Part shown: positions 7,410 through 48,939 of the stretch, one piece after another
Layout: every line of letters starts with the position of its first letter
How positions within the stretch are numbered: the first letter of the stretch is position 1
Assembly (NCBI RefSeq): GCF_011301715.1
Contig: NZ_CP049870.1
Coordinates: 1,240,001-1,304,000 of the forward strand
Origin: Sphingomonas sp. HDW15A
Lineage (GTDB): Bacteria > Pseudomonadota > Alphaproteobacteria > Sphingomonadales > Sphingomonadaceae
Direction: 5' to 3'
Length of the DNA stretch: 64,000 nt
Notes under the pieces: generated by a model
Told to the model about the DNA's origin: nothing
Database searches by the model: none
The model's input: the letters and a program-made list of their open reading frames with translations, nothing else
Translations under genes and position numbers: made by a program

Positions 7410-7416
7410 ACTTTTT
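7386..7416 (+). terminator. Terminator hairpin between convergent ABC exporter and recA
   Basis: GGCGGGCG at 7386-7393 pairs with CGCCCGCC at 7399-7406, followed after five bases by five T (7412-7416). The left arm lies in the last codons of the ABC gene. In the other direction an AAAAA run, then the same hairpin, follows the recA stop, so it may stop both transcripts. Confidence 0.6.
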
Positions 7417-8480
7417 ACTCGACGTCCATCTCAGGACCGACCATCAGCGCCTCGCCGACTTCGGCGGTCTTGCCACGGATGGCGTTCTCGATCCGCTGTG
7501 CAACCTCCGGATTCTCCTTGAGATAAACCTTCGCGTTCTCGCGCCCCTGACCGATGCGGATGGAGTCATAGCTAAACCAGGCCCCGGACTTCTCGACCAG
7601 CCCGGCCTTGACCCGAGATCCAGGATTTCGCCGACCTTGCTCACGCCTTCGCCGTACATGATGTCGAACTCGACCTGCTTGAACGGCGGCGCGACCTTGT
7701 TCTTGACGACCTTCACTCGGGTCGAATTGCCTACGATCTCGTCGCGATCCTTGATCTGCCCGGTCCGGCGAATGTCGAGACGGACCGAAGCATAAAACTT
7801 CAGCGCATTACCGCCGGTCGTCGTTTCCGGGTTGCCGTACATCACGCCGATCTTCATTCGCACCTGGTTGATGAAGATCACCGTGCAGCGCGACCGGCTG
7901 ATTGAGCCGGTGAGCTTGCGGAGCGCCTGGCTCATCAGGCGTGCCTGAAGGCCGACGTGGCTGTCGCCCATCTCGCCTTCGATCTCGGCCCTCGGTACAA
8001 GCGCCGCGACGGAATCAACGACCAGGACGTCGATCGCATTCGAGCGGACCAGCGTATCGACGATCTCTAGTGCCTGCTCGCCAGTATCCGGCTGGGAGAC
8101 GATCAGCTCGTCGATATTCACTCCGAGCTTGCGCGCGTAAACCGGGTCGAGGGCGTGCTCCGCGTCGACGAAAGCGGCGGTTCCGCCCTCCTTCTGCGCT
8201 TCGGCGATGGCATGCAAGGCAAGCGTCGTCTTGCCCGAGCTTTCCGGACCATAGATCTCGATGACCCGTCCGCGGGAAGACCTCCCACGCCGAGCGCGAT
8301 ATCCAGTCCCAGGCTGCCGGTCGAAACCGTTTCGATTTCAATCTGCTCGCGGCTACCGAGCTTCATCGCACTGCCTTTGCCGAACGCACGGTCGATCTGC
8401 GCGAGTGCGGCTTCCAATGCTTTCTGACGATCCGTGTTCACTGCATCCCCGCCTGCGACGACCTTGAGTTGCGTTGCCAT
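7415..8480 (-). CDS. recA: Recombinase RecA, two frameshifts in this sequence
   Basis: DNA strand-exchange protein and co-protease for LexA. Reading continuously needs two one-base corrections: one extra base in the GGG run at 8274-8276 (then [22 protein letters not shown], with the Walker A) and one in the CCC run at 7612-7614 (then [23 protein letters not shown]). With both corrected the protein is about 355 residues, the normal size, and ends in [11 protein letters not shown]-to-loop motifs such as [15 protein letters not shown] are intact. ATG at 8480 has GGAGGG upstream. An alphaproteobacterial SOS box lies at 8556-8570. Two breaks in a gene this important most likely reflect sequencing error. 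Confidence 0.9.
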
Positions 8481-8555
8481 GAGCCCTGTCCCTCCGTCAA
8501 ACGAGCGGCGCACTGCCGCTCGACAGAGGGTCTTCGTATCCTATTTGTTCTCATA

Positions 8556-8570
8556 GAACAAGTAGAGAAC
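8556..8570 (-). promoter_or_regulatory. LexA (SOS) box of recA
   Basis: Read on the recA strand this is GTTC-TCTACTT-GTTC, an exact match to the direct-repeat GTTC-N7-GTTC operator known for alphaproteobacterial LexA. It lies about 76 bases before the recA start. A further GTTC at 8547 makes GTTC-TCATA-GAAC with the first repeat. Confidence 0.85.
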
Positions 8571-8571
8571 G

Positions 8572-8955
8572 TCACTCCTTTTCCGGAGCGACCGCGGCGG
8601 CGCCCTCGATAACCGGTTTGATCCGGTCCAGGGTGTATGGCTTGTCGATCATCGGAACACCCGCGAACTCCTGCGGCGGCGGATCGACATGACCGCCGCT
8701 AGCAAGAATGAAGGGCACCGATCGCTCGCGCAGCGCCCGAGCGACGGGCCAGACGCTTTCACCCTTCAGGTTCACGTCAAGAATGGCGAGATCGAAAGGA
8801 TCGCCGTCAACAGCCTTAAGGGCTTCATCGACGCTTTCGCAGATCGCCGCGACCGAATGGCCGAGAGATTGCACGAAATCCTCGAGCATCATCGAAATGA
8901 GCGGCTCGTCCTCAACGATTAAAATGCATCGCGACACGGACATGACGCAACGCAT
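8572..8955 (-). CDS. Stand-alone response-regulator receiver protein
   Basis: About 124-127 residues, a single receiver domain and no output domain. ILIVEDEPLISMML holds the acidic pocket, LAILDVNL the phospho-acceptor Asp, ILASGG the conserved Ser/Thr position and DKPYTLDRI the conserved Lys. It resembles the CpdR/DivK-size single receivers and the FixJ-unlike LOV-associated receivers common in sphingomonads; the partner kinase is not shown. Start may be the ATG at 8955 or the one at 8943; neither has a clear ribosome site. It lies downstream of cckA, about 30 bases away, but nothing proves they work together. Confidence 0.8.
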   Translation of the reverse strand: MRCVMSVSRCILIVEDEPLISMMLEDFVQSLGHSVAAICESVDEALKAVDGDPFDLAILDVNLKGESVWPVARALRERSVPFILASGGHVDPPPQEFAGVPMIDKPYTLDRIKPVIEGAAAVAPEKE

Positions 8956-8984
8956 AGCAGCCGTTTCGGCGGTGAAAAGGCCTT

Positions 8985-11369
8985 TTATTCCGCGCCTTCC
9001 ACAATCAGCACGGCGCGAACCGCCTCTGCCAGTTCCTGCATCGAGAAAGGCTTTGGCAGGAAAGCGACGTGCTCGATGTCGATCGATTTGCGGAGTTGCT
9101 CTTCCGCGTAGCCCGACATGAACAGTATCGGCATGTCGGGATGGATCTTCCGTGCCTCGCGCACCATTGCCGGCCCATCCATCACTGGCATGACGACGTC
9201 ACTGATGAGAAGGTCAACTTGCTCTCCCCCACGAAGAATTTCGAGGGCATCTTCGCCGTTGCTGGCGGTCAATATGGTGTAGCCATGGCGGGCGAGCGCG
9301 CGTTCCGCCACGGTTCGCACCATCGGCTCGTCTTCGACCAGCAGAACCGTGCCAGTGCCCCACAACTCATTTTCCTGCGGCTTGGCGACAACTCGCGAAG
9401 CGGCGGCGCCCTGCTCGACCTCGTGCGCGGGAAGATAGATTGTAAAACGCGTGCCTTCGCCGACCCGTGAATCGGCGAAGATGAAACCGCCCGACTGTTT
9501 CACGATGCCGTAGACGGTCGACAGGCCGAGGCCCGTCCCCTTCCCGACTTCCTTGGTCGTGAAGAAAGGCTCAAACACCTTCCCCAGCACATTTGCCGGG
9601 ATCCCGGTCCCGGTGTCGGCGATCGAAAGCGCCACGTAATCGGCAATCGGCAGAATGTCCGAACCCAGGTCCGCGACCTGGTCGGCTCGCACCGAATAGG
9701 TCTGAATGGTTACCGTTCCGCCGCCCTTGGATTGCATGGCGTCGCGCGCATTGACGGCCAGGTTCACAATCACCTGTTCCAGCTGGCCCGGGTCGGCACG
9801 AACCGGGAAAAGGTCGCGGCCGTGCTTGACGACCAGCTGGACAGTTTCGCCGAGCAGTCGCTTCAGCAAGTGGGAGACCTCGCTCACCACGTCCGGAAGC
9901 TGCAGAAGCTGCGGGCGCAACGTCTGCTGGCGCGAGAATGCCAGGAGCTGACGCGTAAGCCCCGCCGCGCGGTTGGAATTGGACTTGATCTGCTGAAGAT
10001 CGTCGTAGTCGCTGTCGCCTGGCGCATGGCGCATCAGCATCAAGTCGCAATGGCCGATAATCGCCGTCAGGATGTTGTTGAAGTCGTGAGCGACACCTCC
10101 GGCAAGCTGGCCGACCGCCTGCATCTTTGTCGCCTGTGCGACCTGGCGCTTCAGCTTTGCCTCTTCGCTATTGTCCTTCAGAAGAAGGAGCACCGCGGCC
10201 TCGCCAAGCCCGCGAAGACCGGCAACCGTCAGGGCTACCGGTTCCTGCGGCTGGGCATTAAGCCGCACGGGAAGGTCGCGCGACATCGCCGGACCACGAG
10301 CTTGGCGGCGGACTGCGTCGGCCACCGCGGCCTTGTCTTCCTTGACGACCAGGTCGCCCGGATAAACCAGCGACTTGGCGTCAGCGATACCGCCGGCAGT
10401 CCGGAAAGCCTTGTTGGTCGTCAAGAACCGCCCGTCGCGGTCGACCAACGCCAGTCCCAGTGGAAGCAGGTCGAGCAGAGCCTGAACATTGGTGGAATCT
10501 GATTCAGGCAAAATTGCATTGTCGAACAGCAGCGCTAGTCCGGCCTTCCCGCCCTGAACTCGGTCCAATGGAACATGGACGAGCCTTAAAGGCATTCCGC
10601 CTTCGCCCTCCGCGATCAGCCGAAGCTGTTGCTCGTTGCCGGATATCAGTGTGTCGAGGGCGACAGCGCTTTCCGGCGATGTCCCTTTCAGCGCTCGATC
10701 TGCAAAAAGGCTGTTGCCGGCCAGAACGCGGCCTTCCGGGTCGATGGCCGCGGCGAGGATTCCGCTCCCCGCGAACATCGCGCCTTCGTCGCCGCGCACG
10801 CGTGAAATCAGGTCTTCAATCATCCCGCGGCGTCCGCGCCCGAACTGCCAGAGCAGCAGGTCACCCCCCGCCCCGACGCGTTCTATCCGCATCGGCAGGA
10901 CATCGTCGCTGAGATCGATTCCATCATCCTCGGCAACGCCATCCCGCCACGCCGCCGCGCGCAGGCTGGCCAGTGCGGCCCGACCCTCATCGTCCGAATT
11001 GATCCGGTCCGGGCGCTCGTCGCCAAATCGTTTGCGGTAGGCAGCGTTGGCACTGACGAGCCGCCCGCTCGCGTCGCTCAAGGCGACAGGATGGCTCGAC
11101 GTACCGAGCAGGGACGCGACTAGCGCATAGTCTGGCGCGGCAAGCGCCGGCGCGGCGAGCGGGGCGACCGTCGCTCGCCGCTCGATCACGAAGGCCGCGA
11201 CGAGCATTGCAACCATCCCAGCGACGAACAGCCCGGCGTAGATTGGTTCGCCCGCCCAGGTGAACAGCAGCGCACCGCTTGCCGCCGCTGCCGCCACCAA
11301 AGCCGGAACCAGCCAGGGCAAGCGGCCGGGCGCTTCGGATTCAAGCAGTGCGAGCTGCCGTTCGAGCAT
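8985..11369 (-). CDS. cckA: Hybrid histidine kinase CckA
   Basis: A 794-residue membrane kinase. Two transmembrane helices lie within residues 18-62, PAS-like regions follow (about 90-380), then the phospho-acceptor segment GGVAHDFNNIL with H428, the ATPase domain (NLAVNARDAM, DTGTGIP, GTGLGLSTVYG) and a C-terminal receiver with D724 in LLISDVVMPVMDGP. This order is that of CckA, the kinase/phosphatase that drives the ChpT-CtrA phosphorelay in alphaproteobacteria. In sphingomonads the relay mainly governs motility and development-like genes. Start ATG 11369; the M13 peptidase gene ends 17 bases upstream on the same strand. Confidence 0.9.
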   Translation of the reverse strand: MLERQLALLESEAPGRLPWLVPALVAAAAASGALLFTWAGEPIYAGLFVAGMVAMLVAAFVIERRATVAPLAAPALAAPDYALVASLLGTSSHPVALSDASGRLVSANAAYRKRFGDERPDRINSDDEGRAALASLRAAAWRDGVAEDDGIDLSDDVLPMRIERVGAGGDLLLWQFGRGRRGMIEDLISRVRGDEGAMFAGSGILAAAIDPEGRVLAGNSLFADRALKGTSPESAVALDTLISGNEQQLRLIAEGEGGMPLRLVHVPLDRVQGGKAGLALLFDNAILPESDSTNVQALLDLLPLGLALVDRDGRFLTTNKAFRTAGGIADAKSLVYPGDLVVKEDKAAVADAVRRQARGPAMSRDLPVRLNAQPQEPVALTVAGLRGLGEAAVLLLLKDNSEEAKLKRQVAQATKMQAVGQLAGGVAHDFNNILTAIIGHCDLMLMRHAPGDSDYDDLQQIKSNSNRAAGLTRQLLAFSRQQTLRPQLLQLPDVVSEVSHLLKRLLGETVQLVVKHGRDLFPVRADPGQLEQVIVNLAVNARDAMQSKGGGTVTIQTYSVRADQVADLGSDILPIADYVALSIADTGTGIPANVLGKVFEPFFTTKEVGKGTGLGLSTVYGIVKQSGGFIFADSRVGEGTRFTIYLPAHEVEQGAAASRVVAKPQENELWGTGTVLLVEDEPMVRTVAERALARHGYTILTASNGEDALEILRGGEQVDLLISDVVMPVMDGPAMVREARKIHPDMPILFMSGYAEEQLRKSIDIEHVAFLPKPFSMQELAEAVRAVLIVEGAE

Positions 11370-11386
11370 GGGCGTAGCGAGCCCTC

Positions 11387-13456
11387 CTACCAGATCCGAA
11401 CGCGTTGCTCCGGCGCCAGAAACAGTTTCTGGCCCGGCTGGACCTTGAAGGCATCATACCATTGGTCGAAGTTGCGCACGACCGCCACGCGCTGCTCGGA
11501 CGGCGAGTGCGGATCGGTGATCAGCCGCTGGCGCAAATTTGCCTCGCGATAATTGCGGCGCCACACCTGCGCCCAGCCGAGGTAGAAACGCTGATCGCCT
11601 GTCGTGCCGTCGATCACCGGCGGCTCGGCACCGTTGAGGGAGTGACGATAAGCGTCATAGGCGATGGTCACACCGGCAAGGTCACCGATGTTCTCGCCGA
11701 GCGTGAATGCGCCCTTCACCTTCATTCCGGGCAAGGGTTCATAGGCGTCATATTGCGCGACCAGCTCCTTCGTTAGGCGTTCAAAGGCCGCCACGTCCTC
11801 CTTCGTCCACCAATCGTTCAACCGGCCCTTTTCGTCATATTTGGCCCCCTGGTCGTCGAAATGATGGCTGATTTCATGACCGATTACTGCACCGATGCCG
11901 CCATAGTTGACCGCAGGATCGGCATGCGGATCGAAGAAGGGAGGCTGCAGGATGGCCGCGGGGAAAACGATCTCCTGCATGCCGAAGTTGGCGTATGCAT
12001 TGACCGTCATCGGGGTCATTCCCCACTCCCAACGGCGGATCGGCTGGCCAAGCTTCGAAACATTGTCGTTGTGCGCCCATTCCTGGGCGCGCCACGCATT
12101 GCCGAAGGCGTCGCCGGGGCGAATTTCGAGTGCCGAATAATCCTGCCAGCGCTCCGGATAGCCGATCTTCGTATTGAAGTTGGCGAGCTTGGCGCGAGCA
12201 CGGGCCTTGGTCTCCGGCTTCATCCAGGTAAGCCCGTCAATCCGCCGACCGAGTGCTGCGACGACGTTGCGGACGAGTTCGTCCATCGCGGCTTTGGTCT
12301 CGGGCGGATAGTGGCGCTCGACGTAGATCTTGCTGACATCGTCGGCCAAGGCGCTCGTGACGAAATTGACGCCGCGTTTCCAGCGCGCTTCCTGCTCGGG
12401 CGTTCCGGACAAGGCCGTGCCGTAGAACGCGAACACCTTCTCGTCGATCGTCTTTGGCAGCACCGCGCCGAAGCTGGAGATGCTTCGAACGGTCAGTTGA
12501 TCCTTAAGCACCTGAAGCGGGGTGGCTGCGATCAACTTGGCGATCCCCGTCACTGCGCTCGGCTGCGAGACGACCACCTCATTGAAGTCGACCCGGCTGT
12601 CGTTGAGATAGCGCTTGAAGTCGAAGCCCGGCGCTCGCGACTGCAATTGCGCAAGGGTCATGAGGTTGTAGGTCTTGGTCGAATCGCGGCTATCGACCTG
12701 GGTCCAGTGAACCCGTGCGACCTTGGTCTCGTAATCGAGGATTGCCTTTGCCCGGGCAGCCGCATTGGCGGTCCCCGCTTCCGTCAGGATGGATGTCAGC
12801 AGTTCCAGATACTGCGCCCGGGTGGCCGCGATCTTGGCGTCGTTGGACAGGTAGTAATCCCGATCGGGCATGCCGATGCCGCCCTGGAACATGATCGGCA
12901 CGTAGCGATCAGGCGACTTGTCGTCCTGGCCGACGAAGAAGGGAAATGGCGTGCCGATGCCGTAAATTCCCGCCTTGGCGAGAAGTGCGGGATAGCCGGC
13001 CTTCGACGTCAGGGCAGCAACCTCGTCGAGCCACGGCTTGATGGGCGAAAGGCCCTTGGCTTCGATCGATGCCGTGTCGAGAAAGGCCGTGTAGGCCGTC
13101 CCGATCTTGCTCGAGCTGTCCTTGGCAGCTTCCTCAACGATGACCTTGGTGCGCTCCTTCGACAGGTCGTCGAGCATCGTGAACATGCCATAGTTCGACT
13201 TGTCGGCTGGGATGGCGGTGTTCTTGGCCCAAGTGCCGTTCGCGAAGGCGTAGAAACTGTCGCCCGGAAGTACGGTGGTATCCATGCCGGCCTTGTCGAA
13301 CCCGTACGTCCCGATCTCGGGCTTCGGCGCGGGTGGGGGCGCGGCCTCTGCCGGCGCCGGGGGAGCCGCTTCGGCAACCGCGACCGGCGCGGTCTGAGAC
13401 GCGGAACAGGCCGCAAGTGCGCTTGCAAGCGCGAACAACGAAACCAACCTCTGCAT
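11387..13456 (-). CDS. M13 family metallopeptidase (neprilysin/PepO-like) lipoprotein
   Basis: A 689-residue zinc peptidase. A lipoprotein signal MQRLVSLFALASALAAC leads to a Pro/Ala-rich linker to residue 48, then the M13 N-terminal and catalytic domains. The zinc site is VIGHEISHHFDDQG with H527, E528 and H531; GENIGDLAGV supplies the third ligand, and NAYANFGMQEIVFPAAIL is the substrate-binding NAY motif. It should act in the periplasm, anchored to a membrane. Length and motifs are normal for bacterial members. Confidence 0.9.
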   Translation of the reverse strand: MQRLVSLFALASALAACSASQTAPVAVAEAAPPAPAEAAPPPAPKPEIGTYGFDKAGMDTTVLPGDSFYAFANGTWAKNTAIPADKSNYGMFTMLDDLSKERTKVIVEEAAKDSSSKIGTAYTAFLDTASIEAKGLSPIKPWLDEVAALTSKAGYPALLAKAGIYGIGTPFPFFVGQDDKSPDRYVPIMFQGGIGMPDRDYYLSNDAKIAATRAQYLELLTSILTEAGTANAAARAKAILDYETKVARVHWTQVDSRDSTKTYNLMTLAQLQSRAPGFDFKRYLNDSRVDFNEVVVSQPSAVTGIAKLIAATPLQVLKDQLTVRSISSFGAVLPKTIDEKVFAFYGTALSGTPEQEARWKRGVNFVTSALADDVSKIYVERHYPPETKAAMDELVRNVVAALGRRIDGLTWMKPETKARARAKLANFNTKIGYPERWQDYSALEIRPGDAFGNAWRAQEWAHNDNVSKLGQPIRRWEWGMTPMTVNAYANFGMQEIVFPAAILQPPFFDPHADPAVNYGGIGAVIGHEISHHFDDQGAKYDEKGRLNDWWTKEDVAAFERLTKELVAQYDAYEPLPGMKVKGAFTLGENIGDLAGVTIAYDAYRHSLNGAEPPVIDGTTGDQRFYLGWAQVWRRNYREANLRQRLITDPHSPSEQRVAVVRNFDQWYDAFKVQPGQKLFLAPEQRVRIW

Positions 13457-13559
13457 CGATTACTCTCCCATTCATCCCGAACGCCCGCCATCGGACAGAT
13501 GGCAGGGCGAACATCGCGGCTATCGATAGCCGGTCATGCGATTTCGGCAAACGGCAGAG

Positions 13560-14042
13560 TTACTTGTGGGCACGAAGGATGCGCTGCTGGTCGCGCTTCC
13601 AGTCCCGTTGTTTGATTGTCTCGCGCTTGTCGTGCGTTTTCTTGCCCCGGGCCAGTCCAAGCTCGACCTTCGCCTTGCCCTTGCCGTTGAAGTAAATGGA
13701 CAACGGGATGAGCGTCAGGCCCTGTCGCTGGATTGCACCGGTCAGCTTGTCGATCTGCCGCCGTTTCAACAGCAGGCGCCTGCGCCTGCGCGGGTCGTGG
13801 TTCATCCAGCTCCCTGACTTGTACTGGGGGATGGAGGCATTGATCAGATACACTTCCTCGCCGTCGACCGTCGCATAACTTTCCGCGATCGAGCCTTCGC
13901 CGATCCGAAGCGCTTTCACTTCCGTGCCCTGCAGCGAAATACCGGCCTCGAACCGTTCCTCGATGAAGTAATCGAAGCGCGCGCGCCGATTTTCGGCGAC
14001 CACTTTCGCCTTGTCGAATTCGTGAATGTCCGGGGATGCCAT
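13560..14042 (-). CDS. smpB: SsrA-binding protein SmpB
   Basis: A 160-residue partner of tmRNA in ribosome rescue. N-terminal [29 protein letters not shown], and the basic tail [14 protein letters not shown] are typical. It starts at ATG 14042, six bases after the dapA stop on the same strand, the common dapA-smpB order in alphaproteobacteria. No ssrA gene is seen nearby. Confidence 0.95.
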
Positions 14043-14048
14043 GACCGA

Positions 14049-14921: not shown

Positions 14922-15006
14922 GCTTTTTCCTTCGCTTCAGGGTTCAACGCAAAATAATCGAGGGGAAATGGGGGTGCGTTCAGCGACTGATAAGAAGCAG
15001 GATAGC

Positions 15007-16967
15007 ATGATGTCCAGCATGCGAACCTCAGCGCTCCTGTTTCTAGCCTTCGCTTTTCCTTCCGTAACCGCGAGCGCGCAAACGGTCCCGCCGCCGGCAT
15101 CCTACCGCGCGGTCTCCGCTTCGGAAATCGGTTATGCGCTGAATGACTGGCGCCGGCTGCGCCAGAGCGATGGCTATGCCTTCGCGGATTTCGCCCGCTT
15201 TCTCAACGCCAATCCAGGCTGGCCGGAAGAGTCGCGGATGCGCCGCGCCGCCGAGAGGCAAATGCGCAGCGGCGAGCATGGCCCGACGGTAATCGCCTTC
15301 TTCCGTAGCCAGAAGCCGCGCACCGGCAATGGCTGGACCCGCTATGCCGAGGCGCTGTCCGCGGCCGGACGAACGAGCGAAGCGCTCACCGCCGCGCGGG
15401 AAGCCTGGGCATCGTCCGACCTCGCGGCAGCCGATGAAGCCGCGATCCGCGCGCGATTCCTTAGTAGTTTTACAATGGCGGACCATGACCGACGGGCCGA
15501 TTCCCTTCTGTTCGACAAGAACCCGGCTGGCGCCGCAGCCCTTCTAGGAAGCGTAAGTCCGGCGCGGCGGGCCGCGTTCCAGGCCCGTGTCGCCATGCAG
15601 ACCTCGGCCCCCAACTCCGACGCTCTTTACCGTGTCGTCGAGGGGCAGACCGCGACGGATGCGGGCCTGTTGATGGATCGCCTGCGCTTCCTGAAGGACA
15701 CGTACCGCAACGTCAGCGGAGCACGGGTCCTCGCCGCCCGTCCCCATCGTTTCGCAATTCGCCCGGCTGACGCGGAGCGCTGGTATGACATGCTGCTGGT
15801 GCTCGCCCGCGAAGCCTATAACGCCGGCGCCTGGCAGCAGGCCTACGCCATCGCCAGCCAGGCCGATGACGCCTTCGCGTCGGGCACGGACATCTCGGAC
15901 CAGAGTTACGCAATTCGCGACAATTACACCTCGCTCACATGGCTCGCCGGCCAGGCCGCGCTTACGGGGACCCGAAACTACAGCGCTGCCGCCAGCGAGT
16001 TCGCCAAATATGCCCGCGGCGGACGATCGTTGCAGGTAACCACCAAAGGCTATTACTGGGCCGGAAGAGCGATGGCGTATGCATCGCGCGGCGCCGACGC
16101 CAACCGCTACTTCCAGCAGGCTGCTGCCTATCCGGAGCTCTTCTACGGACAGCTCGCGCTTGAAAGGCTTGGACGACCGATTCCTCCCCCGGGGGACTTC
16201 CGACGATGCTGGTGACGCCCGCGCAGCGCGCAGCCTTCGCGGCAAACCGGCTTGCGAAAGCGCTAGAGGTGGTTTCGCAGCAAGGCCGGCGTGACGAGGC
16301 GACCTTGTTTACGAGGGCGCTGTCCGAGAGCTTGACAAATAACGCCGATCGAATCCTGGCAGTCGAACTTGGCCAGCGCCTGAATCGCCCCGATGTCGCC
16401 GTGTGGGTCGCGCGTTCTGCCCGCAACGACGGTTCGCCATTCTATTACCGGCCCGCATTCCCGACGCATTATGCGAGCGTCCCGTCGGGCCGCGTCTGGT
16501 CGCTTGTTCACGGGATAACGCGCCAGGAAAGCTCGTTCGACCGCTCGGTCGTCAGTCACGCCGGCGCTCGCGGAATGATGCAGCTGATGCCAGGAACGGC
16601 GGACGAGGAAGCGCGCAAGGCGGGCATGGGCTACAGCCTCGGCCGCCTGACCAGCGATCCCAATTACAATGTCGCGCTCGGGACCAACCATGCCCGCCGG
16701 CTCCTGGGCCGTTATGACGGCAATTATGTCCTCGCGGTCGCCGCCTACAACGCCGGGCCGGGCAACGTGAACAAGTGGATCGCGCGCTATGGCGATCCAC
16801 GCCGCGGCAATGTCGACGTGCTTCGCTGGATCGAGCAGATCCCCTTCATGGAGACGCGTGGCTACGTCCAGCGCGTGCTGGAGAACAGCGCCGTGTACGA
16901 CCAGATGAATTCGAGCACCCAGAATGCGAACCTCTCCCATTTCCTCGGCAAGTCGCGGCCGGGCTGA
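15007..16967 (+). CDS. slt: Soluble lytic murein transglycosylase, one frameshift in this sequence
   Basis: With one base restored this is a protein of about 653 residues. It begins with a signal peptide (MMSSMRTSALLFLAFAFPSVTASAQ), continues with a helical superhelix domain, and ends with a lysozyme-like SLT domain: RQESSFDRSVVSHAGARG with the catalytic Glu, MMQLMPGTA and VAAYNAGPGNVNKW. It cleaves peptidoglycan to 1,6-anhydro-muropeptides in the periplasm. The frame breaks between the CCCCCGGGGG run at 16187-16196 and 16201; one extra C or G joins both halves. Start ATG 15007 with AGCAGGA upstream; the stop overlaps the greB start. Confidence 0.88.
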
Positions 16968-18241: not shown

Positions 18242-18251
18242 GAGAGCTTGA

Positions 18252-23199: not shown

Positions 23200-25328
23200 T
23201 CAGGCTCCGCCGCGCTGGAAGAGCCGAAGCTTGGGGACGTCTTTCCCCGACAACGCTTGACCGCGTCCGGATAGGGATGGGTTCGTCATGAAATACTGAT
23301 GCAGGTTGAAACGCCGCTTGCCTGGCTTCAGCCGGCGATAGCTGCCGTCGGTAAGCAACTCCCAGCTTTGCTCGTTGTCGATGAGGTTTGCGATCATGAC
23401 TTGGTCGAGCACCTGGGCATGAACCGTCGGGTTCTCGATAGGCAGCATATATTCGACCCGCCGATCGAAGTTCCTTCCCATCCAGTCCGCAGAGCTGATG
23501 TAGACGCGGGCCTTCCGATGCGGCAGCGATGCGCCGTTGGCGAACACGAAAATCCGGCTGTGCTCCAGGAAGCGACCGACGATCGACTTCACCCGGATAT
23601 TCGATGACATGCCAGGAACACCGGGTCTCAGGCAGCATATTCCGCGTACGACCAGATCGATCGAGACCCCGCATGTGCTCGCCTCGTATAGCTTCTCGAT
23701 AATCGTTTTATCGACCAGGCTGTTCATCTTCGCCCAAATGGCCGCCGGCTTCCCCGCCTTGGCGTTATCGATCTCCGTTTGCATGAGGCTGAGCAGCTTG
23801 TCGCGAAGACCGTGCGGACTGAGTGTAAGCAACTCCAGCCCTTTCGGCTGCACGTAGCCGGACGTGAGATTGAACAGCTTGGCGGCATCACGGGCCGCTC
23901 TGCGCGAAGCCGTGAAGAAGCTCAGGTCCGTGTAGATGCGCGCGGTTGCGGGGTGATAATTGCCCGTTCCGAAATGGCAGTAAGTGCGAATCGCAGAGCC
24001 TTCGCGGCGGACCACCATTGAGACTTTGGCGTGGGTCTTCCAGTCGACGAACCCGTAAATAACCTGCACGCCAGCCCGCTCGAGCCGGCTTGCCCACAAC
24101 AGATTTTGTTCTTCCTCGAAACGGGCTTTTAGCTCGACCACCGCAGTGACCGACTTTCCTGCCTCTGCACCGGCAACCAGGGCATCGATGATGGCCGACT
24201 GCTTGCCCGCGCGGTACATCGTTTGCTTGATCGCAATGACGTCCGGATCGGCCGCAGCCTGGCGAAGGAAACCGACCACCGCCTCGAAACTCTCGTACGG
24301 ATGGTGAATGATGAAATCCTTCGTCCGGATCGCGGCGAAGAAATCCCCGTCATGTTCGGCGATACGCTCTGGAAAGCGCGGGCTGTAGGGCGCGAACTTC
24401 AGCACAGGCAGGTCGGTCTCGACGAGTTGGGCGAGATCTGCAACGCCGATGATACCCGCGCTTTCGGCAATGAGAGCGGAATCCGCCGCCAGACCCTCAC
24501 GCACCAATGCTTCCAGGCCGGGCGGCGTGCCGGCGTCGAATTCCAGCCGGATGACCCTGCCGCGGCGGCGGCGCTGGATCGCGGAACGGAAATATCTAAC
24601 CAGGTCTTCGGCTTCCTCGTCGACCTCGATATCGCTGTCCCGGAGTACGCGAAAAGCGCCGGACGCGATCATTCGAAAACCCGGAAAGACGAGTTCGAGG
24701 TGCGCCTCGATCGCCGCTTCGATGGCGATGAAGCGAATCTGCTGCCCTCGCCTCGGCAAAGCGACGAAGCGCGGAAGCATCGATGGAATCATCAGCAGCT
24801 CGGTCACTGAGTGTCGGCTTCGTCCACGCTGGAGCGTAAAGACGAGGCTGAAACCTCCGCTTGGGATGAACGGGAACGGGTGCGAGGGATCGATTGCCTG
24901 CGGCGTGAGAACCGGCAGGATCTGCTCTCGGACGTGATTCTCCAGCCACTCGGCTTCCGACTTGGTCAACGCATCGGCAGTGACCACCTGAAGCCGCTCG
25001 TCGGCCAGTTGCTCCCGAAGGATAAGCCATTCGGCTTGCTGGGCAACGACCAGGGCATCCGCCTCCTGGGCAATGGCATCGAGCTGCTGCGTCGGCGTTT
25101 GCCCATCCAGCGACAAATCTTCGATTCCGCGAAGTTGCTGGCCTTTCAATCCGGCGACACGGGTGATGAAAAACTCGTCGAGGTTGGATCCGCAGATCGA
25201 CAGGAAGCGAAGCCGCTCAAGCAAAGGATGGGCGGAGTTGGTCGCTTCCTCGAGAACCCGGCGGTTGAACGCGAGCCAGCTTAGCTCGCGGTTGAAGAAC
25301 CGCCGTTCGCCCGGGGGATTGCGTTCAT
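23200..25328 (-). CDS. ppk: Polyphosphate kinase 1, frameshift near the N-terminus in this sequence
   Basis: Catalyses reversible transfer of the ATP gamma-phosphate to polyphosphate. The main frame from 25224 covers most of the protein, including the histidine segment TYCHFGTGNYHPATARIYTD and the FLEHSRIFVF region with the second His. The universal N-terminal segment RRFFNRELSWLAFNRRVLEEA lies before any start codon in that frame. Adding one base to the five-G run at 25313-25317 (five C on the gene strand) joins it to the ATG at 25328, giving MNAIPPGERRFFNRELSW and about 709 residues. That ATG overlaps the hda stop (ATGA), which supports it. Confidence 0.9.
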
Positions 25329-25951
25329 GCCGCCCCGCGCGCGTCGATTAGTCCCGCGTCTGCCAGTGCCCTGCGAACGGTCGGAACGGTGACCCGCGCC
25401 CGGTCGGCGATTGCGAAGCGGTCGATGGCTTCGACGATGCGCTCGGCGGTCCAATAGTCGCGATGAACCCGCTGGACGACATAGCGAAGCGCGTCGGGCG
25501 GGATGACGAGTCCCCGATCAGCGAATCCAAGCACGATCAGTTGCTCGAACAATTCGTCGTCCGGATCCTGAATCCGGACGACCGGAGTCACGGCAATCCG
25601 CGTTCGAAGATCCGGCAAGGCAATTCTCCAGGGCTCGCGGTCGCCAGTGATCATGACTAGCGGCCGTCCGGTCTCCTGGGCCTGGTTCCAGGCGTGGAAG
25701 AGCTCTTCCTCGTCGTGGCGCTCGCAATCGTCGAACAGGCGACCGCCGACGCGGTCGACAAAGGCCCGGGCCAGCAAGGTCCTGCCGGAACGGCGCGGGC
25801 CGGCAAGGATCGTTGCCTTGACCGGCCACAGGCTCCATTTGCGGAAATGCTCGAAGGCTTCGCGATTGGCCTCCGACAGGATGAAGCGGCTTGAGTCTTC
25901 CGCCCTGGGCCAGTCGAGCGGAAGCGCGAACTGGTCGGGCTTGGCATTCAT
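25325..25951 (-). CDS. hdaA: DnaA-related regulatory protein Hda/HdaA
   Basis: A 208-residue protein with the DnaA AAA+ fold: it begins MNAKPDQFALPLDWPR, which carries the clamp-binding QFALPL motif near the N-terminus, then ILAGPRRSGRTLLARAFVD, a Walker A relative, and LRTRIAVTPVV (sensor region). Hda works with the sliding clamp to hydrolyse DnaA-ATP and stop over-initiation. ATG 25951 overlaps the upstream DUF2066 stop; its own stop overlaps the ppk ATG. The frame is open further upstream but without homology. Confidence 0.88.
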   Translation of the reverse strand: MNAKPDQFALPLDWPRAEDSSRFILSEANREAFEHFRKWSLWPVKATILAGPRRSGRTLLARAFVDRVGGRLFDDCERHDEEELFHAWNQAQETGRPLVMITGDREPWRIALPDLRTRIAVTPVVRIQDPDDELFEQLIVLGFADRGLVIPPDALRYVVQRVHRDYWTAERIVEAIDRFAIADRARVTVPTVRRALADAGLIDARGAA

Positions 25952-27221
25952 TGCGAATTGCCCGGGGGTTGCGCCGCGCCTTGCGGCTGGGGCTGCTGTT
26001 GCTGCGGCGGGGATGGCTGTTGCTGGCTCGGCGGCGGCGGCGGCACGGCCGGCGTCAGTCGCAATGTGCCGCCGACATTCGTGACCGCCCATCCTCGCGA
26101 CTGAATTGCTCCGCCGAGGCCGCCGATGTTGCCGCGATAATTGACCAGAAGTAGCGACCACCCGCCAATAGCAGTGCTTCGCGGCGCAACCGAAACCACG
26201 CCTGGAATGCCGCGCAATTCGCCCATCGCCGAAGCGAAAGTCTGCTCGTTGGGCGTGATGACCTGGATCTGGATGAGGCGCGCGGGCACCTCGACCGGAG
26301 CAATCTCTTCTTCCACTGGAGGCGGAGGCTCGACCGTGACCAGGCTTGTGTCGCGAACCAGCAGCCCCGCGGCAAGCGCGTCGGAGAACAACTGATCCAT
26401 TCGTTCCACGCCCTCGGCCATCATTCGCGGCAGATCGGCGCTATCTTTGGCGCGGAGCGTGAAGCCACCGAGAATCGTCCCGTCGGCGCCGTGTCGCCCG
26501 ACGAACCGGGCGACTGCCGGCCCCCCGGATAAGCGCGGTGAAGCGTCACTTCGGCCATCAGGATGTCCGCAGCGCCGTAATAATCGAGCACGTTGCGCCA
26601 CCATGCGCGTCCCGGGCGGCGAGTCTGCGCAGCGTTGATCAGCAATGGATCGGGGCCTAGGCCGCTCACGCGCACGTAATCGATCGGGCTTTGCGACGTG
26701 CGGAATTGCGCCCAGGCGCGCTGCCAGGGGTTCCGACGCTCGACTGTGGTCAAGGTCCCCGCAGTCTGGAAGACAGGGATCAGCATCATCGCGGCGGACC
26801 GGCGCTGCAGCCCCGAAAAGCCCAGCATTTCACCTGCCCTCGCCCTGTCGAACAGGATTCCCAGCTGCGCGATATACCGATTGGGGCCGATCTGTTCATT
26901 CTCGACGATGATCGAGCTGACAAGGGTATCGAGCACGCTGTCGCTAAGGGTCGGTGCTTCGCTCATCGGCCGTTTGTGCTGCTTTGCCCAAAGCGCCTTG
27001 AAGCCTTCGCGCTGAGCGATCCGCCAACCATTAAAGCGCGCTTCGGCAGCGGTCTTGCCGCCGACATCGACCTTGATTCCCGTTATCTCGAGCGTGCCGG
27101 AGCTGTCGATCGGCAGGATTCCGCGGTCGCCGGATTCCAGCTGCGCGTAAAGCCCTCCGGCGGCGAGGCCGCTGATGGCGATGCAAAGGGCGATAATCGT
27201 AAGGCGCCGGGACAGGACCAT
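25948..27221 (-). CDS. DUF2066 envelope protein, one frameshift in this sequence
   Basis: Joined, about 424 residues. An N-terminal signal or anchor (SRRLTIIALCIAISGLAAGGLYAQ) precedes a DUF2066 domain with EITGIKVDVGGKTAAEARFNGWRIAQ; later comes a domain with LIQIQVITPNEQTFASAMGE and a Gln/Pro-rich tail. The reading frame changes at the six-C run 26521-26526 (six G on the gene strand); one more G fuses LHRAYPGG to PAVARFVGRHG. DUF2066 proteins regularly precede hda in alphaproteobacteria and sphingomonads, but their function is unknown. ATG 27221; divergent from purM. Confidence 0.78.
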
Positions 27222-27282
27222 TGGCGGCTTTTGGCGACAATGACGTGGAAATCCAAGCGCGATCTGGCTAGGCGCAGCCGCA

Positions 27283-31440: not shown

Positions 31441-32906
31441 TCAGCCTTCCGCGACGTCCGCGACGAACTGGTCGAGCAGGCGCACCCCATAGCCGGTCGC
31501 GCCCTTGCCGTACGTCGTCTTGTCCTTGTCCGACCAAGCCATTCCGGCAATGTCGAGGTGCGCCCAGGGCGTGTCGTTCTCGACGAAGCGTTGCAGGAAC
31601 TGGGCGGCGGTGATCGATCCGGCCTCGCGCGGCCCGACGTTCTTCATGTCGGCGATGTGGGAATCGATCAGGCGGTCGTAGGCTTCGCCGAGCGGCTGGC
31701 GCCATAGCTGGTCGCCGGTGTCACGCCCCGCCTTTAGCAATTGGTCGGCAAGCTCGTCATTGTTCGAGAAGATGCCCGCATATTCATGACCCAGGGTGAT
31801 GACCATGGCACCGGTCAGTGTCGCGAGATCGACCATCAATCGCGGCTTCGCCGTGCGTTGCACCCACGTCATCACGTCGCAAAGTACCAGGCGGCCTTCC
31901 GCGTCCGTGTTGATCACTTCGATGGTCTGTCCGCTCATAGACGTCACGACGTCACCGGGGCGCTGGGCGTTTCCGTCCGGCATGTTCTCGACGAGGCCGC
32001 ACACGCCGATGACGTTCGCCTTCGCCTTGCGTGCGGCCAGCGCCATCATCGCGCCGGCGACGGCGCCCGCTCCGCCCATGTCCCACTTCATCGATTCCAT
32101 GCCGGCGGCCGGCTTGATGGAAATCCCGCCGGTATCGAACGTCACGCCCTTGCCGAGAAGCGCAACCGGGGCCTCATCCTTGGCACCACCGTTCCAGCGC
32201 ATCACGAGCAGGCGGGGCTCACGGACCGAGCCTTGCGCAACGCCGAGAAGCGCGCCCATGCCAAGCTTGGCCATCGCCGGCCCATTCAAGACCTCGATCT
32301 CCAGACCCAGGCCTTCCGTATTCGCCTTGACGCGCGACACGAAGCTTTCGGGATAGATGATGTTGGGCGGCTCCGCGACCAGTTCGCGGGTCAGCGCGGC
32401 GCCCTGCGCGACAGCCGCATAACGGTCCTTCCAGCGCTTGCCGGCGTCGGCGCCGGCACCGACGATGGTCACTCTGGCCAGGGTCGGCTTCTGCTTGTCT
32501 TTCAGGCGCGTGCGATAGCGGTCGTAGCGCCAGCTGCGCAGTTCTGCTGCAAGCGCAACGCGGGCCGCAGCGTCGGCGTCGAAATCGAAGCCGCCAAGGT
32601 CGATGACGGCATGGGTTTCACCTGAAGCGAACAAACGCGCGGCCGTTGTTCCGCCGAGCTTTTCCGCGGCCTTCGCGTCAAGTGAATCGCCGATCCCGAC
32701 TACCAAGATTCTGCGGCCGCCATCTTCCGACAGATAGGCTTCACCGACGCTGCCGCTTTCGCCGTCGAAGCGCTGGCGCTTGAGCGCGGCCTCGACCGAG
32801 GCGCGATCGCCCGACAGGCCCTCGATCCCTGGCCGCGTCTTGGCGGAGGCGGGAATGACCAAGGCATAATCCCGGACGGTCGGCTGTCGGCGAAATGGAT
32901 CTGCAT
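31441..32906 (-). CDS. pepA: Leucyl aminopeptidase, frameshift near the N-terminus in this sequence
   Basis: An M17 dinuclear metal aminopeptidase of about 488 residues. Key motifs: GKGVTFDTGGISIKP, KWDMGGAGAV, NTDAEGRLVL (metal ligands and catalytic Lys/Arg). In this sequence the main frame has no good start before VRDYALVIPASA. The ATG at 32906 starts MQIHFADS in another frame, and one extra base at 32882-32883 joins it as MQIHFADSPTVRDYALVIP. A weak AGGAA is upstream of that ATG. The gene is divergent from lptD. Confidence 0.9.
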
Positions 32907-33077
32907 TGCGAATAGGTTCCTGATGATCGGGAGGATGCGTTGAGCGTGCCTTTAAGGACGGCGGCCCCGATATGCAAAGGCGGTTATCCCTCACCTTGCC
33001 GCAATCCGGATTGCCGAGATTCGGCAAGGGTGCAATAGGCACCACTGGATTGAATTTCCGGGGCGGGTTGCAAGGAC
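32907..33077. other. Divergent intergenic region pepA / lptD
   Basis: 171 bases that must hold the promoters of both genes. I see no small gene and no strong motif. Confidence 0.4.
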
Positions 33078-35323
33078 GTGCGTTCAGCGCTGAAGATCAT
33101 GTGTTGCACGGCGCTGCCACTCTTCGCAGCGCCCGCTTATTCGGCCACCGCGCAGGCCGAGGTCACCCCGATGCCGGTCCTACGACCGAGTCTCCTGTGC
33201 AAGTGGCGGACGGCCGGAATGTGAATTTCTCCGCCGATCGCGTGACATACGACAGCGAGGCGGACGTGATCTTCGCCGAAGGCCGCGTCCGGATGGACAG
33301 CGATGGCAACTATCTCGCCGCTGACCGGGTTACCTGGACCCGCAAGACCGGTGAAGTCGTCGCCGAAAGCAACGTCGTCGTCGTCAGCCCCGCAGGCGAC
33401 AAACTAGTCGGCGACAAGGTAACCCTGACGGACGACCTTCGCGACGGGACCATCGACAATCTCCTCGTCGTCCTCGAAAGCGGCGGCCGCATCGCGGCAG
33501 CGAGCGCTAGCCGGCAAGGTGGCCGGACGGTCCTTGAGAACGCCGTTTACTCGCCCTGCCCGATCACGACCGCGGATGGCTGCCCGCGCAATCCAAGCTG
33601 GAAGATCAATGCCGCTCGGGTCATCCAGGATCCGGAAAGCGGCCGGATCCGCTTTCAGGGCGGAAGGCTCAGCCTTTTCGGGGTCGCAATCCCCCTGCTC
33701 CCGATTTTCAGCATCGGCTCGCGAAGCGACGACGGCGGTATCACCGGGGCCCTCATTCCGAACATCGCCGTTTCGAACTCGAACGGGCTCGAGCTTGCGT
33801 TGCCCTATTATTTTCGGCTCGCGCCCAATCGCGACCTGACGGTCACGCCGCACATTTATTCAAAGACCGCTCCGGCTATCGAGGGCAAGTACCGACATCT
33901 CACCGCCAACGGGGCCTACCAGCTCGGCGGCTTCCTGACTTACGGTGAGGTCGACGACCCCGATCCCAATGACCCTACTCCCACGGACCGCGAGGACATC
34001 CGGGCCTATTTCGAAGGCAACGGGAAATTTCAGTTCGATCCCTCTTGGAGTTTGACGGGCTCGCTCAGGGTCGCAAGCGACAAGACCGTCCTTCGCCGTT
34101 ATGACATCAGCCGGGACGACGTGCTGCGGAATTTCCTCGATCTCGAACGGATCGACACCGACAGCTACATTTCCATCGCGGCCTGGGCTTTTCAGGGTCT
34201 TCGCGTCGACGATGTGCAAAAGCAGATCCCGATCGCGCTTCCGGCAATCGATGCGCGCTTTCTTTTCGACGATCCATGGCTTGGCGGACGGTTCGAGGTT
34301 CAAGGCAACAGCCTGGCGATCATGCGGATCGACGGTCAGGACACACAGCGCGCCTTTGCCAGCGCACGATGGGACATCAGCCGCCTGACACGATTCGGCC
34401 AGGAATTGACGCTGACCGCGTTCGGTCGCGGTGACGTCTATCACACCGGCGAAGCCGAAGAGACGGCGGTTGATGCCTATGCCGGGGAGAATGGCTGGCA
34501 TTTCCGGGGGATTGGGGCGCTCGCGGCCGACGCCAAATGGCCGTTCATCGGCCCGGCGTTCGGCGGAACCCAGAGGCTGACTCCCAGGGTCCAGGTCGTG
34601 CTCACCCCGCCAACACCGAACCTCGATATCCCGAACGAGGACGCACGGTCCGTGGACCTCGAAGACTCGAACCTATTCGCATTGAACCGCTTCCCAGGGT
34701 ACGACCGCTGGGAAGACGGTTCGCGCATCACCTATGGCGCGGAGTGGACGCTCGACCTTCCGAACTTCTCGCTACAGTCTGTCATCGGTCAGAGCTATCG
34801 CCTGACTCGAAAGCCCAGCATCTTCCCGGACGGCACGGGACTGACCGACCGCTGGTCGGACATCGTTGGCCGCACACGATTGCGCTTCGGTAGCTTCATC
34901 GACCTCACCCACCGGTATCGCTTCGACAAGGACAATCTCGCGCCACGCAGGAACGAGCTCGACCTGACGATTGGCAGCTACGAAACCTATGCGCAGATCG
35001 GCTATCTCAAGCTCAACCGCGACATCGGTTCGACGATCGAGGATTTGCGCGACAAGGAAGAGGTGCGGCTTGCCGCCCGGGTCAAGTTCGCGCGCTACTG
35101 GTCGGTCTTCGGTTCGACGGTCATCGACCTTACCGGCGCTGACGAAGATCCGCTGAGCCTTGCGGACGGCTATGAACCGGTCCGCCACCGCCTGAGCTTG
35201 ACCTACGAAGACGAATGCTTGGAGGTTGGAGTCTCATGGAAGCGCGACTATGAGCGCATCGGCGAGTTCCGGAAAGGCAATACCTTTGCCTTGAGGTTCT
35301 CTCTCAAGGGGATGGGCCGCTAA
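33078..35323 (+). CDS. lptD: LPS-assembly protein LptD, frameshift after the signal peptide in this sequence
   Basis: About 748 residues after repair. The signal peptide RSALKIMCCTALPLFAAPAYSATAQA is encoded in a frame starting at GTG 33078 (alternatively ATG 33099); an in-frame stop lies just before. The rest (VQVADGRNVNFSADRVTYDSEADVIFAEG, OstA domain; a beta-barrel after about residue 230) is in the next frame. One extra C at 33179-33180 joins both as AEVTPMPVPTTESPVQV. The pair of Cys in SPCPITTADGCP is the expected LptD disulfide region. It inserts LPS in the outer membrane with LptE. First gene of lptD-surA-pdxA-rsmA. Confidence 0.9.
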
Positions 35324-39110: not shown

Positions 39111-40285
39111 TCACGGCGCGGTCATAGTGGCGACGAAAAAGCCGTCAGTCGAGTCGTAAGCCGGTGTTAGCAAACGGCCTTTTCCATCCGAACGTCCGAT
39201 CGTCGTCAAAGTATCCTGCGCGATCCAAGATGAATGGCGCCCTAAGAATGCTTCGACCTGACCCGCACCTTCCCTCGCAAGCATCGAGCACACGGCATAG
39301 ACCAACGATCCGCCAGGCCTGACCAGCGGGGCGGCAATGTCGAGCAGCCGGGACTGGATGCCTAGTACCCGGTCCAGGCGATCTGGAGTCAGCCGCCATC
39401 GCCCCTCCGGATTGCGCCGCCACGTCCCCGAGCCGCTGCATGGCGCATCGACGAGCACGACGTTGAAGCTTTTCTCAAATTCTGCGAGTTGCGCGGCTTC
39501 GCGGCCTCCGTCGAGAAGGCGCGTTTCGATATTCGTGCCAGCACGCTCGGCCCGAGCCGGAAGTCTCGACAGCCGCGCGCGATTAGTGTCGGTGGCCAGG
39601 ATCGTGGCCCCAGGCGCTGCGGCAGCAAGCGCCAGCGCCTTGCCACCCGCACCCGCACACAGATCCAGGACTCGCATGCCGTCCACCGGTCCACAGGCGA
39701 GCGCAATCAGCTGGCTTCCCTCGTCCTGGACCTCGATCTCGCCCGCGAGGTACGCCGGATGCTGGTCGATACGCGTCTCGGCCTGCAACCTCAGGCCCCA
39801 CGGGCTCAGCGGCGTTGGCGATGCGTCGTCGAACTTGGCCTGTGCTTCCTTGCGGGACAGCCTGGCGACATTCACCCGGAGATCGAGGGGCGCCCGTTCC
39901 AACAGGGCCGGATATTCATCGGGGTTACCAGCGGCGAAAGCTCGGCCTCGACCCATTTGGGAACCAGCCCTTTCTCGGCGGCCTCCTCACCAGCCGAAAT
40001 TGTCGCTGGTCCGTGCGCCGAACCGTCGAACATCGCCGCCAGTTCATTGTCACCGCTGGCGAGGGCGAGCATCGCCGCCCGCCCGCTCATCGGCCGTTCC
40101 GCGACCTTTCGGATCGCGGCGAACGCTAGCTCGCGCACCGCTCGCCGGTCCTTCGACCCGGCATAGCGCCGCGTCTTGAAGTAACTGCTGACAATGGCGT
40201 CCGCCGGCGGCCCGTCGTCAAGGGCCGAAGCGATGACGGCGTCGAGAATCTCGATCGCGGCCTGGACCCGCGCTGCGGGAGTCAT
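39111..40285 (-). CDS. rsmB: 16S rRNA m5C methyltransferase RsmB-like, one frameshift in this sequence
   Basis: About 391 residues after repair: an N-terminal NusB-like RNA-binding domain (AAIEILDAVIASALDDGPPADAIVSSYFKTRRY), then the RsmB/Sun core with VLDLCAGAGGKALALA (SAM), VLVDAPCSGSGTWRRNP and YAVCSMLAREG (the two catalytic Cys). One extra C in the four-G run 39921-39924 (C on the gene strand) joins LSPLVTP to DEYPALLERAPLDLRVN. It directly follows guaB. Exact target base is inferred from the family. Confidence 0.87.
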
Positions 40286-40288
40286 GGC

Positions 40289-41809
<1,521 letters not shown>

Positions 41810-43659: not shown

Positions 43660-43724
43660 GCCGATTTTCCTTCCCCGAGGCGTTCCGGTTTTGCATCATG
43701 CCGCAATTCAGCGGGGAAATAACC

Positions 43725-46980: not shown

Positions 46981-47331
46981 CCGGGATAATAACCTTACGG
47001 CCTGCCACGGGTCCCCTTACCACTCGGCTCCACCGGTTTACCAATCCTGGGACCGAGCTTCCCTGTCGAGCTCGCAGGCAAGCCCGCGCTCGATTAAGGC
47101 ATGGCCTCCGCTACCGCTCCTAGAGTCAGCTTTCCATCCAAAACTGACGCAAAAATCTGTCCTACAGCAGGCAAGACAAGCAATGGAGATCGCCGCTCAT
47201 TCTCGCCGCGGATCGCTTCCGCAGTCTTAAAATGCCGTACCAAAGTTGCGGCAGGCATTATACCGGAACGTGTCGCAAACTTTGCGAACTTCCGCGCTAG
47301 GGCCGCCTCATACCAAGCTTGCCTTCGCCGT
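46981..47331. other. 351-base gene-poor stretch between DUF885 and ptsH
   Basis: Two converging genes end here. The base composition is more AT-rich than around it. On the minus strand a TATAAT (47262-47257) and a 15-base palindrome (47273-47287) stand just before a possible 54-codon frame (about 47094-47258), which I cannot assign. No tRNA fold or known RNA recognised; ptsI/ptsP, which often follows ptsH, is absent. Confidence 0.45.
47273..47287. repeat. 15-base palindrome, operator-like
   Basis: TCGCAAA-C-TTTGCGA, seven-base perfect arms around one base, ten bases upstream of a minus-strand TATAAT. It lies about 45 bases past the ptsH stop, so it could be either an operator or a small hairpin. 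Confidence 0.4.
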
Positions 47332-47604
47332 TCATTCCTCGCCGAATTTGCCTTCGACAAGCGCGGTGAGCTGCTGCAACGCGTCTTCGCAACTCTCGCC
47401 CGAGCAGTAGATGGTGATTTCGTCGCCCATTGCCGCGCCCAGCATCATCAGGCCCATGATCGAGGTGCCGGTCACGCGATTGCCGTCCTTCTCGACCTCG
47501 ACCGACGCCGGAAGCCCATGCACCAGATTGACGAATTTCGCGCTGGCGCGGGCATGAAGGCCGCGCCGGTTGCTGACGGTGATGGTCCGGTGGCAGCCGC
47601 TCAA
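47332..47604 (-). CDS. ptsH: Phosphocarrier protein HPr
   Basis: 90 residues. RGLHARASAKFVNL holds the His that accepts phosphate from enzyme I; TGTSIMGLMMLGA holds the regulatory Ser used by HPr kinase. TTG 47604 is taken as start because it overlaps the EIIA stop (TTGA) and no ATG/GTG lies near. It belongs to the regulatory PTS of alphaproteobacteria, together with EIIA and HprK upstream. Confidence 0.88.
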   Translation of the reverse strand: MSGCHRTITVSNRRGLHARASAKFVNLVHGLPASVEVEKDGNRVTGTSIMGLMMLGAAMGDEITIYCSGESCEDALQQLTALVEGKFGEE

Positions 47605-48007
47605 GCAGCGGCCTCGCCGAGAATCTCGGATGCTACCGAGATATATTTGCGCCCTGCTTCGCGGGCCGCGGCAACTGCGGCGCGAACGCCCATCACCTTT
47701 CGCGCGCCTTCGAGGCGGATCAGCATCGGCAAGTTGACCCCGGCAATCACCTCGATGTCGGTCGATTTCATCAGGCTGATGGCCAGGTTGGACGGTGTGC
47801 CGCCGAAAAGGTCGGTGAGGATGATCACCCCATCGCCTTCGTTCACTTTCTCGATCGCTTCGGCAATGTCGCCGCGGCGCTTTTCCATGTCGTCGTCGGC
47901 ATCGATGCAAATGCCCTCGATCCCCTTCTGGGGCCGACCACATGTTCCAGTGCCGTGATGAACTCGACCGCAAGGCGGCCGTGGGTCACCAATACCAATC
48001 CGATCAT
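47601..48007 (-). CDS. PTS EIIA component (mannose/fructose type), one frameshift in this sequence
   Basis: About 135 residues after repair. MIGLVLVTHGRLAVEF contains the phospho-accepting His (H9), and GVIILTDLFGGTPSNLA is the second family block. The frame breaks in the GGGG run 47930-47933 (CCCC on the gene strand); one more C gives ALEHVVGPQKGIEGICIDADDD. The ATG at 48007 follows directly after the rapZ stop. No EIIB/EIIC permease genes are nearby, so it is probably regulatory. Confidence 0.85.
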
Positions 48008-48939
48008 TCACTCACCCGAATTATCCCCCGCCGAATCCGGGCGGGTATCCTCGACGCTGTCACTCGGCCTGGAGGATAGGTCACGATGGCGGATATTCGC
48101 TGTAATTCCCGCCGCGTGCAACCGCTCCGCCATTTCGACCGCGGCAGCCACCGAACGGTGGCGCCCCCCAGTACAGCCGAAACCTACCGTCAGGTAGGTT
48201 TTGCCAGCGGCCCAATAGCGGGGAATCAGTTCCGCGAGAAGCGCTTCCGTCGAATCCATCATTTGGGCCCATCCCGGGTCGCCCGCGCAATAGTCGCGCA
48301 CCGCCTGGTCGAGGCCGGTGAGCGGCCGAAGCTCGTCCACCCAATGCGGGTTCGCCACAAAGCGCATGTCGAAAACCAGGTCCGCGGTGCGCGAAATGCC
48401 GCGCGCGAATCCGAACGACGCGATGGTGACGATCGGTCGGTCGCGGTCCTCGCCGTAGCGACGGCGAAGCTCTTCGCGCAGCTCGGACGGGGTCAGTTCG
48501 GTCGTGTCCAGCACCGAGTCGGCAGCCTGGCGGAGCGCGGCGGTCATCCCCGCTCTCGCGCGATCCCATCTTCGGCCGGCCGGTCCGGGGCCAGCGGATG
48601 GCGGCGGCGAGTCTCGTCATATCGGCGAATGAGTTCGGCGCCGGCGCAATCGAGATAGAGGATTTCCGGCCGGACGCCCTCAACCGAGCGAATGATGTCC
48701 GGAAGCTTCTCGGCATCGAAGCCGCGGCTTCTGGCGTCCATCCCGACTGCGACTGGGACATTGTGCCCGGATTGCCGCTCCCCGTGAACGAAGTCCGCGA
48801 GCAGTGCGACTGGCAGGTTGTCGACGCAGTCCCAGCCCATATCCTCGAGCGCATCGAGCACGGTCGACTTGCCGGCCCCGGACATCCCCGTAACGAGAAG
48901 CAGACGAGGGAGGCCCTTTCGGGAAGTCTTGTCCATCAC
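48008..48939 (-). CDS. rapZ: RNase adapter RapZ (YvcJ-type nucleotide-binding protein), one frameshift in this sequence
   Basis: About 310 residues when joined. The N-terminal part has a Walker A (LLLVTGMSGAGKST) and DCVDNLPVAL; the C-terminal part has SFGFARGISRTADLVFDMRFVANPHW and VGFGCTGGRHRSVA. One extra base in the CCCC run 48548-48551 (GGGG on the gene strand) joins GIARERG to MTAALRQAADSVLDT. In gammaproteobacteria RapZ controls glmZ RNA; the role in alphaproteobacteria is less clear. The start GTG 48939 overlaps the hprK stop. Confidence 0.87.

Follow-up and report, generated by a model that had tools for sequence, protein, structure and literature searches.

Residual homopolymer insertions and deletions in long-read consensus sequences have been reported to cut genes (PMC8011154, PMC12007338, and PMC9262707). 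In an example given in PMC12007338, deletions mostly come after runs of four or five bases, and A/T runs are affected roughly twice as frequently as those of G/C. For PacBio CCS data, homopolymer indels account for 92% of read errors, a figure cited in PMC12007338.

The genome of Sphingomonas sp. HDW15A is a single contig of 2,340,126 bases with a completeness score of 99.05%. A stretch of 64,000 nucleotides from this contig (positions 1,240,001 to 1,304,000), referred to here as the window, was the starting point of the present analysis. An initial annotation, made from the sequence of the window alone, had proposed ten single-base deletions at C/G runs in nine core genes and ascribed them to under-calling of homopolymers in the assembly. 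Here, these junctions were compared with the corresponding genes of same-genus genomes, and the comparison was extended to other parts of the HDW15A genome and to pairs of relatives that do not include HDW15A.

Materials and Methods

Matching stretches from six genomes, all of the same genus and none of the same species, served as the reference set. Among the matches listed, with short stray pieces excluded, the window was matched in pieces at 64 to 86% DNA identity. A search of named genomes with the 689-residue protein encoded at 11387-13456 gave its best matches in Sphingomonas cremea, S. caseinilyticus, and related species. Open frames of the relatives were aligned to the window by frame-tolerant protein-to-DNA alignment with a fixed cost per frame change, identical for one missing and one extra base, and a single relative gene was retained at each place by greedy selection. 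For counts at individual sites, the best-matching open frame of each genome was chosen regardless of breaks, and frame-change costs of 22 (strict) and 14 (mild) were applied. The intervals reported for the EIIA and rapZ breaks were derived from five and four hand-picked references, respectively, that showed the break, while the 6/6 counts for these genes were obtained free of such a choice.

Tabulating frame changes from tblastn pieces was abandoned, since in GC-rich DNA open antisense frames match as well and made the result too noisy. A long open frame of this type (584 amino acids) lies antisense to a likely gene at positions 11861 to 13615 of the window, and similar frames occur at other places. 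Such frames are expected in GC-rich DNA, match the relatives as well, and mislead frame scans.

Beyond the window, 400 kb from elsewhere in the HDW15A genome, taken as 20 stretches, were compared with 880 kb of one relative (G014). This sample represents about a fifth of the genome, and the comparable part is smaller. To be counted, a break had to be flanked on each side by 20 or more residues with an identity of 45% or higher. After 51 of the 261 alignments, those of the window included, were set aside for containing stops or for identity below 55%, 210 genes spanning 211.3 kb remained (termed clean genes below). Outside the window, 195 of the 203 alignments and all 28 events were located in 12 of the 20 stretches (L115 to L126, at 1.10 to 1.24 and 1.30 to 1.40 Mb). 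Because the outside events were confined in this way, the other eight stretches, together with a stretch containing mutS, were compared with a further 800 kb from other contigs of G014, yielding 61 alignments and 41 clean genes (43.3 kb). The mutS stretch was selected for its seemingly short frame.

Results

At all ten junctions, every break that was found consisted of one base too few in HDW15A, in agreement with the initial annotation, which had described one base missing and never one extra. The located intervals overlap the runs originally named at nine of the ten sites. The exception is pepA, for which positions 32882-32883 had been proposed, about 10 bases away from the interval of 32869-32873 that was obtained with four of the six references; the other two references place the break within 32866-32879. 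As judged from the aligned sequences, the frame breaks hold firmly at eight sites and weakly at two, ppk and lptD; the original observation of ten breaks in nine genes is partly confirmed (Table 1).

Table 1. Frame breaks in nine genes of the window. Relatives are counted at the strict frame-change cost or, where marked, at the mild cost.
Gene	Position	Strand	Break	Longest G/C run	Relatives with break	Family or domain
recA (two breaks)	7426-8498	-	7610-7614; 8272-8276	3; 3	6/6 strict at each	RecA family in intact relative
slt, lytic transglycosylase (SLT) gene	14971-16962	+	within 16183-16199	5 (runs of 5 C and 5 G)	6/6 strict	SLT domain in a relative
ppk, polyphosphate kinase 1	23211-25347	-	probable, near start, about 25309-25340	5	2/6 strict, 4/6 mild	ppk family
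Genus-conserved gene	26019-27223	-	within 26518-26528	6	6/6 strict	
pepA, leucyl aminopeptidase	31449-32909	-	32869-32873, about 12 residues past start	3	5/6 strict, 6/6 mild	family match
lptD	33099-35318	+	possible, N-terminal region, about 33174-33181	2	2/6 strict, 4/6 mild	LptD domain
rsmB-type rRNA methyltransferase gene	39119-40288	-	within 39918-39928	4	6/6 strict	Methyltr_RsmB-F
PTS EIIA	47601-48011	-	within 47928-47935	4	6/6 strict	EIIA-man
rapZ	48028-48912	-	within 48545-48552	4	6/6 strict	RapZ family

For recA, the mean identity on either side of the breaks was 0.85 to 0.96, and a search of the whole HDW15A genome for RecA recovered two pieces. The gene at 26.5 kb had originally been labeled DUF2066, a label that was not borne out. 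The gene is 57 to 64% identical to two relatives and has no Pfam or NCBIfam match above the cut-off; its counterparts in relatives match no DUF2066 model, and a second relative examined gave only an unrelated match below threshold. The intervals obtained for ppk were scattered. A further argument for a break in ppk is that no ATG, GTG, or TTG precedes its conserved N-terminus, FFNRELSWLAFN, in the same frame, and that the first listed start (TTG, 25224) is located downstream of this N-terminus. At lptD, two of the four gains observed at a cost of 14 amounted to just 2 and 5 score units; the piece upstream of the break resembles a signal peptide. No sequence motif common to the junctions, beyond the runs themselves, was seen when their contexts were inspected by eye. 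Two events supported by multiple references elsewhere in the window, at 14042 and 50908, were judged to be gene overlaps and rejected; at 50908 the alignment with G014 runs through unbroken.

The sign of the breaks was then set against that observed among the relatives. In 25 pairs that did not include HDW15A, the same filter yielded 30 one-missing and 30 one-extra breaks over 955 kb. With HDW15A as the subject and six references, there were 38 and 4, respectively, with repeated sites recounted. When HDW15A instead served as the reference for six relatives, the sign was mirrored (4 one-missing versus 23 one-extra), and in the larger reverse comparison G014 displayed 4 and 16. A relative with a genome of similar size (G018, same genus, 2,339,771 bases) was balanced, at 5:7 in five comparisons with other relatives. 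In single pairs of relatives, as many as 5 events shared one sign, and single events are thus not proof. Clusters backed by at least three references numbered 11 in HDW15A versus between 1 and 6 in each of the five relatives that were fully tested (G002 was used as a subject against one reference only); the clusters of the relatives were of both signs and lay mostly at lower identities or had short left sides.

Breaks of the same kind were found beyond the window. Across the window and its surroundings, 30 of the 210 clean genes contained a total of 37 one-missing breaks versus 1 one-extra break; with all alignments retained, these numbers were 42 and 8. The rate in the window (9 breaks in 54.0 kb) was similar to that in the surroundings (28 in 157.3 kb). 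Two of the nine clean events in the window, at 27227 and 58702, are probably alignment noise: they lie near gene starts or overlaps, contain no G/C run of at least 3, and were judged false, though they are still counted among the 37. In the distant stretches, 9 one-missing and no one-extra breaks were detected, 3 of the 9 being supplied by the mutS stretch; when this stretch was omitted, the counts were 6 and 0, at about 0.1, 0.3, 1.8, and 2.1 Mb.

Genes broken in the window and its surroundings include dnaE (two breaks), gyrA, alaS, dnaX (two), yidC (two, of which one, at the start, is weak), and gcvPB. Further broken genes are pth (three), a GidA-type gene, lipA, rseP, plsY, an Hsp33 gene, ligD, cysN/C, the glutamate-cysteine ligase gene, lysS (break near the start), and egtD. 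The three apparent breaks in pth (L125:6893-7275) fall within 400 bases, and one of them adjoins a T run; possible A/T cases such as this one are few.

The frequency of breaks rose with the length of the G/C run, from 0.02% of runs of 2 to 0.26% of runs of 3 (11/4303), 1.2% of runs of 4 (9/767), 5.3% of runs of 5 (7/133), and 12.5% of runs of 6 (2/16). For this calculation each break was credited to whichever run in the located interval was longest, an approximation that somewhat favors long runs. Among runs of at least 3, 29 of 5220 G/C runs were broken versus 2 of 2492 A/T runs (odds ratio, 7; P = 0.0009). A run of at least 4 was contained in 20 of the 37 located intervals, versus a mean of 3.2 and a maximum of 9 in 1000 random draws, which were equally favored by the assignment. 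At the ten junctions of the window, G/C runs of at least 4 were present at six sites, versus 0.6 expected at random coding places, a number matched in none of 5000 draws; the other four sites have runs of only 2 or 3. Likewise, the longest run was only 3 in 11 of the 37 events and only 2 in six. Runs of 2 to 3 are short for homopolymer error, and some of these events are probably alignment noise. G/C runs of at least 7 occurred at 0.2 per 100 kb in the 400 kb of HDW15A, with none in the window, versus 2.0 in G014; this deficit fits under-calling, although the counts are tiny.

The broken genes were as well conserved as the others, with a mean identity to the relative of 0.74 in the 30 broken genes versus 0.75 in the 180 intact genes (P = 0.78). 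Interior stop codons were not in excess, numbering 10 in the 261 HDW15A alignments versus 24 in the 277 alignments of the reverse comparison. Family and DNA searches found no 16S or 23S rRNA genes in the genomes of HDW15A, G014, or G017, which probably reflects missed stretches rather than true absence.

Discussion

These comparisons argue, with a probability that we place at about 96%, that the breaks are errors in the assembly consensus, caused by under-calling of G/C homopolymers, rather than products of biology. This explanation is favored because the sign of the breaks is one-sided, they are spread within and outside the window, their frequency rises with run length, genes held to be indispensable are among those broken, and the same analysis is symmetric among relatives; it is favored also because the broken genes exhibit neither relaxed conservation nor an excess of stop codons. 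The proposal of homopolymer under-calling made in the initial annotation is thereby supported. Under this explanation, a small fraction of G or C runs would emerge from base calling or consensus building one base shorter than in the DNA itself, so that intact genes look cut in their reading frame, while the real genes of the cell would be continuous. The source of the errors would be long-read sequencing, as the single 2.34-Mb contig suggests, and the scarcity of A/T cases might, as a guess, reflect a bias of the base caller in GC-rich DNA.

Were the deletions real, HDW15A could be a mutator strain that lacks mismatch repair, with slippage at G/C runs and genes that are truly broken. Defects in repair increase slippage at runs, and mutS (L190:762-3481, about 2,064,262-2,066,981 of the genome contig) is broken at two G runs against both relatives used, with a third, weak break near the start against one relative only. 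On their face the mutS breaks suggest a mutator. However, mutL is continuous, and dnaE, gyrA, alaS, and dnaX are held to be indispensable, so that the loss of all four is hardly possible in a living cell. A mutator should also yield insertions and substitutions, whereas one-missing breaks outnumber one-extra breaks 37:1 and no excess of stop codons is seen. We regard a mutator as very unlikely, and the breaks in mutS most likely belong to the same class of errors. Continuous proteins could instead be made from shortened G/C runs, which are slippery in principle, by programmed ribosomal frameshifting or transcriptional slippage, and the downstream frames are indeed well conserved. Yet the open frames of the relatives pass unbroken through the eight firm sites, and the sites are scattered over many unrelated genes, frequently at runs of 3, making frameshifting of this kind so improbable as to be nearly negligible. 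Vanishingly little probability likewise attaches to a reading in which the short runs are real, the lineage lost mutS by such deletions, and slippage in transcription or translation yields continuous RecA, DnaE, GyrA, and other core proteins.

The breaks could also be ordinary pseudogenes or signs of decay in a small genome; the HDW15A genome is small (2.34 Mb), and most bacterial genomes carry some true pseudogenes (PMC8011154). This too is highly improbable, since the broken genes are conserved like the intact ones, core genes are affected, one kind of lesion dominates, and the similar-sized G018 has a balanced 5:7. Finally, frame breaks could be mimicked by alignment noise, which in GC-rich DNA arises where genes overlap or antisense frames stay open. 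Unfiltered scans do give many spurious frame changes, those of relatives included, two of the nine clean events in the window have this appearance, and ppk and lptD could be of the same nature. Noise between relatives is symmetric, however (30:30), and seven sites recur in 6/6 and one in 5/6 references at the same place and with the same sign. Alignment noise is thus ruled out at eight of the ten junctions, and as an account of the breaks as a whole it is scarcely credible.

If under-calling is the correct reading, about one in seven of the compared genes (30/210) would be falsely cut in this assembly. Pseudogene counts, inferences of gene loss (recA, mutS, and ppk), and newly described split genes from HDW15A would then be unreliable unless supported by reads, and a completeness score of 99% fails to reveal the cut genes. 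The finding is not a biological novelty.

In its relation to known systems, HDW15A resembles mismatch-repair mutator genomes in that mutS seems broken and the lesions lie at runs, where mutators undergo slippage. It differs from them in that core genes are broken, nearly all lesions are deletions, the runs are very short, and stop codons show no excess. A density of about one break in every 6 kb of coding sequence would be high if deep CCS data were involved; if the data are CCS, low depth could account for it. There is likewise a resemblance to the residual indels of nanopore consensus sequences, which are systematic single-base indels at homopolymers; they disrupt reading frames and give rise to false pseudogenes, with thousands per genome at the upper end (PMC8011154, PMC12007338, and PMC9262707). 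Unlike the nanopore example in PMC12007338, in which A/T runs were the more affected, the errors of HDW15A are nearly all deletions and lie mostly in G/C runs.
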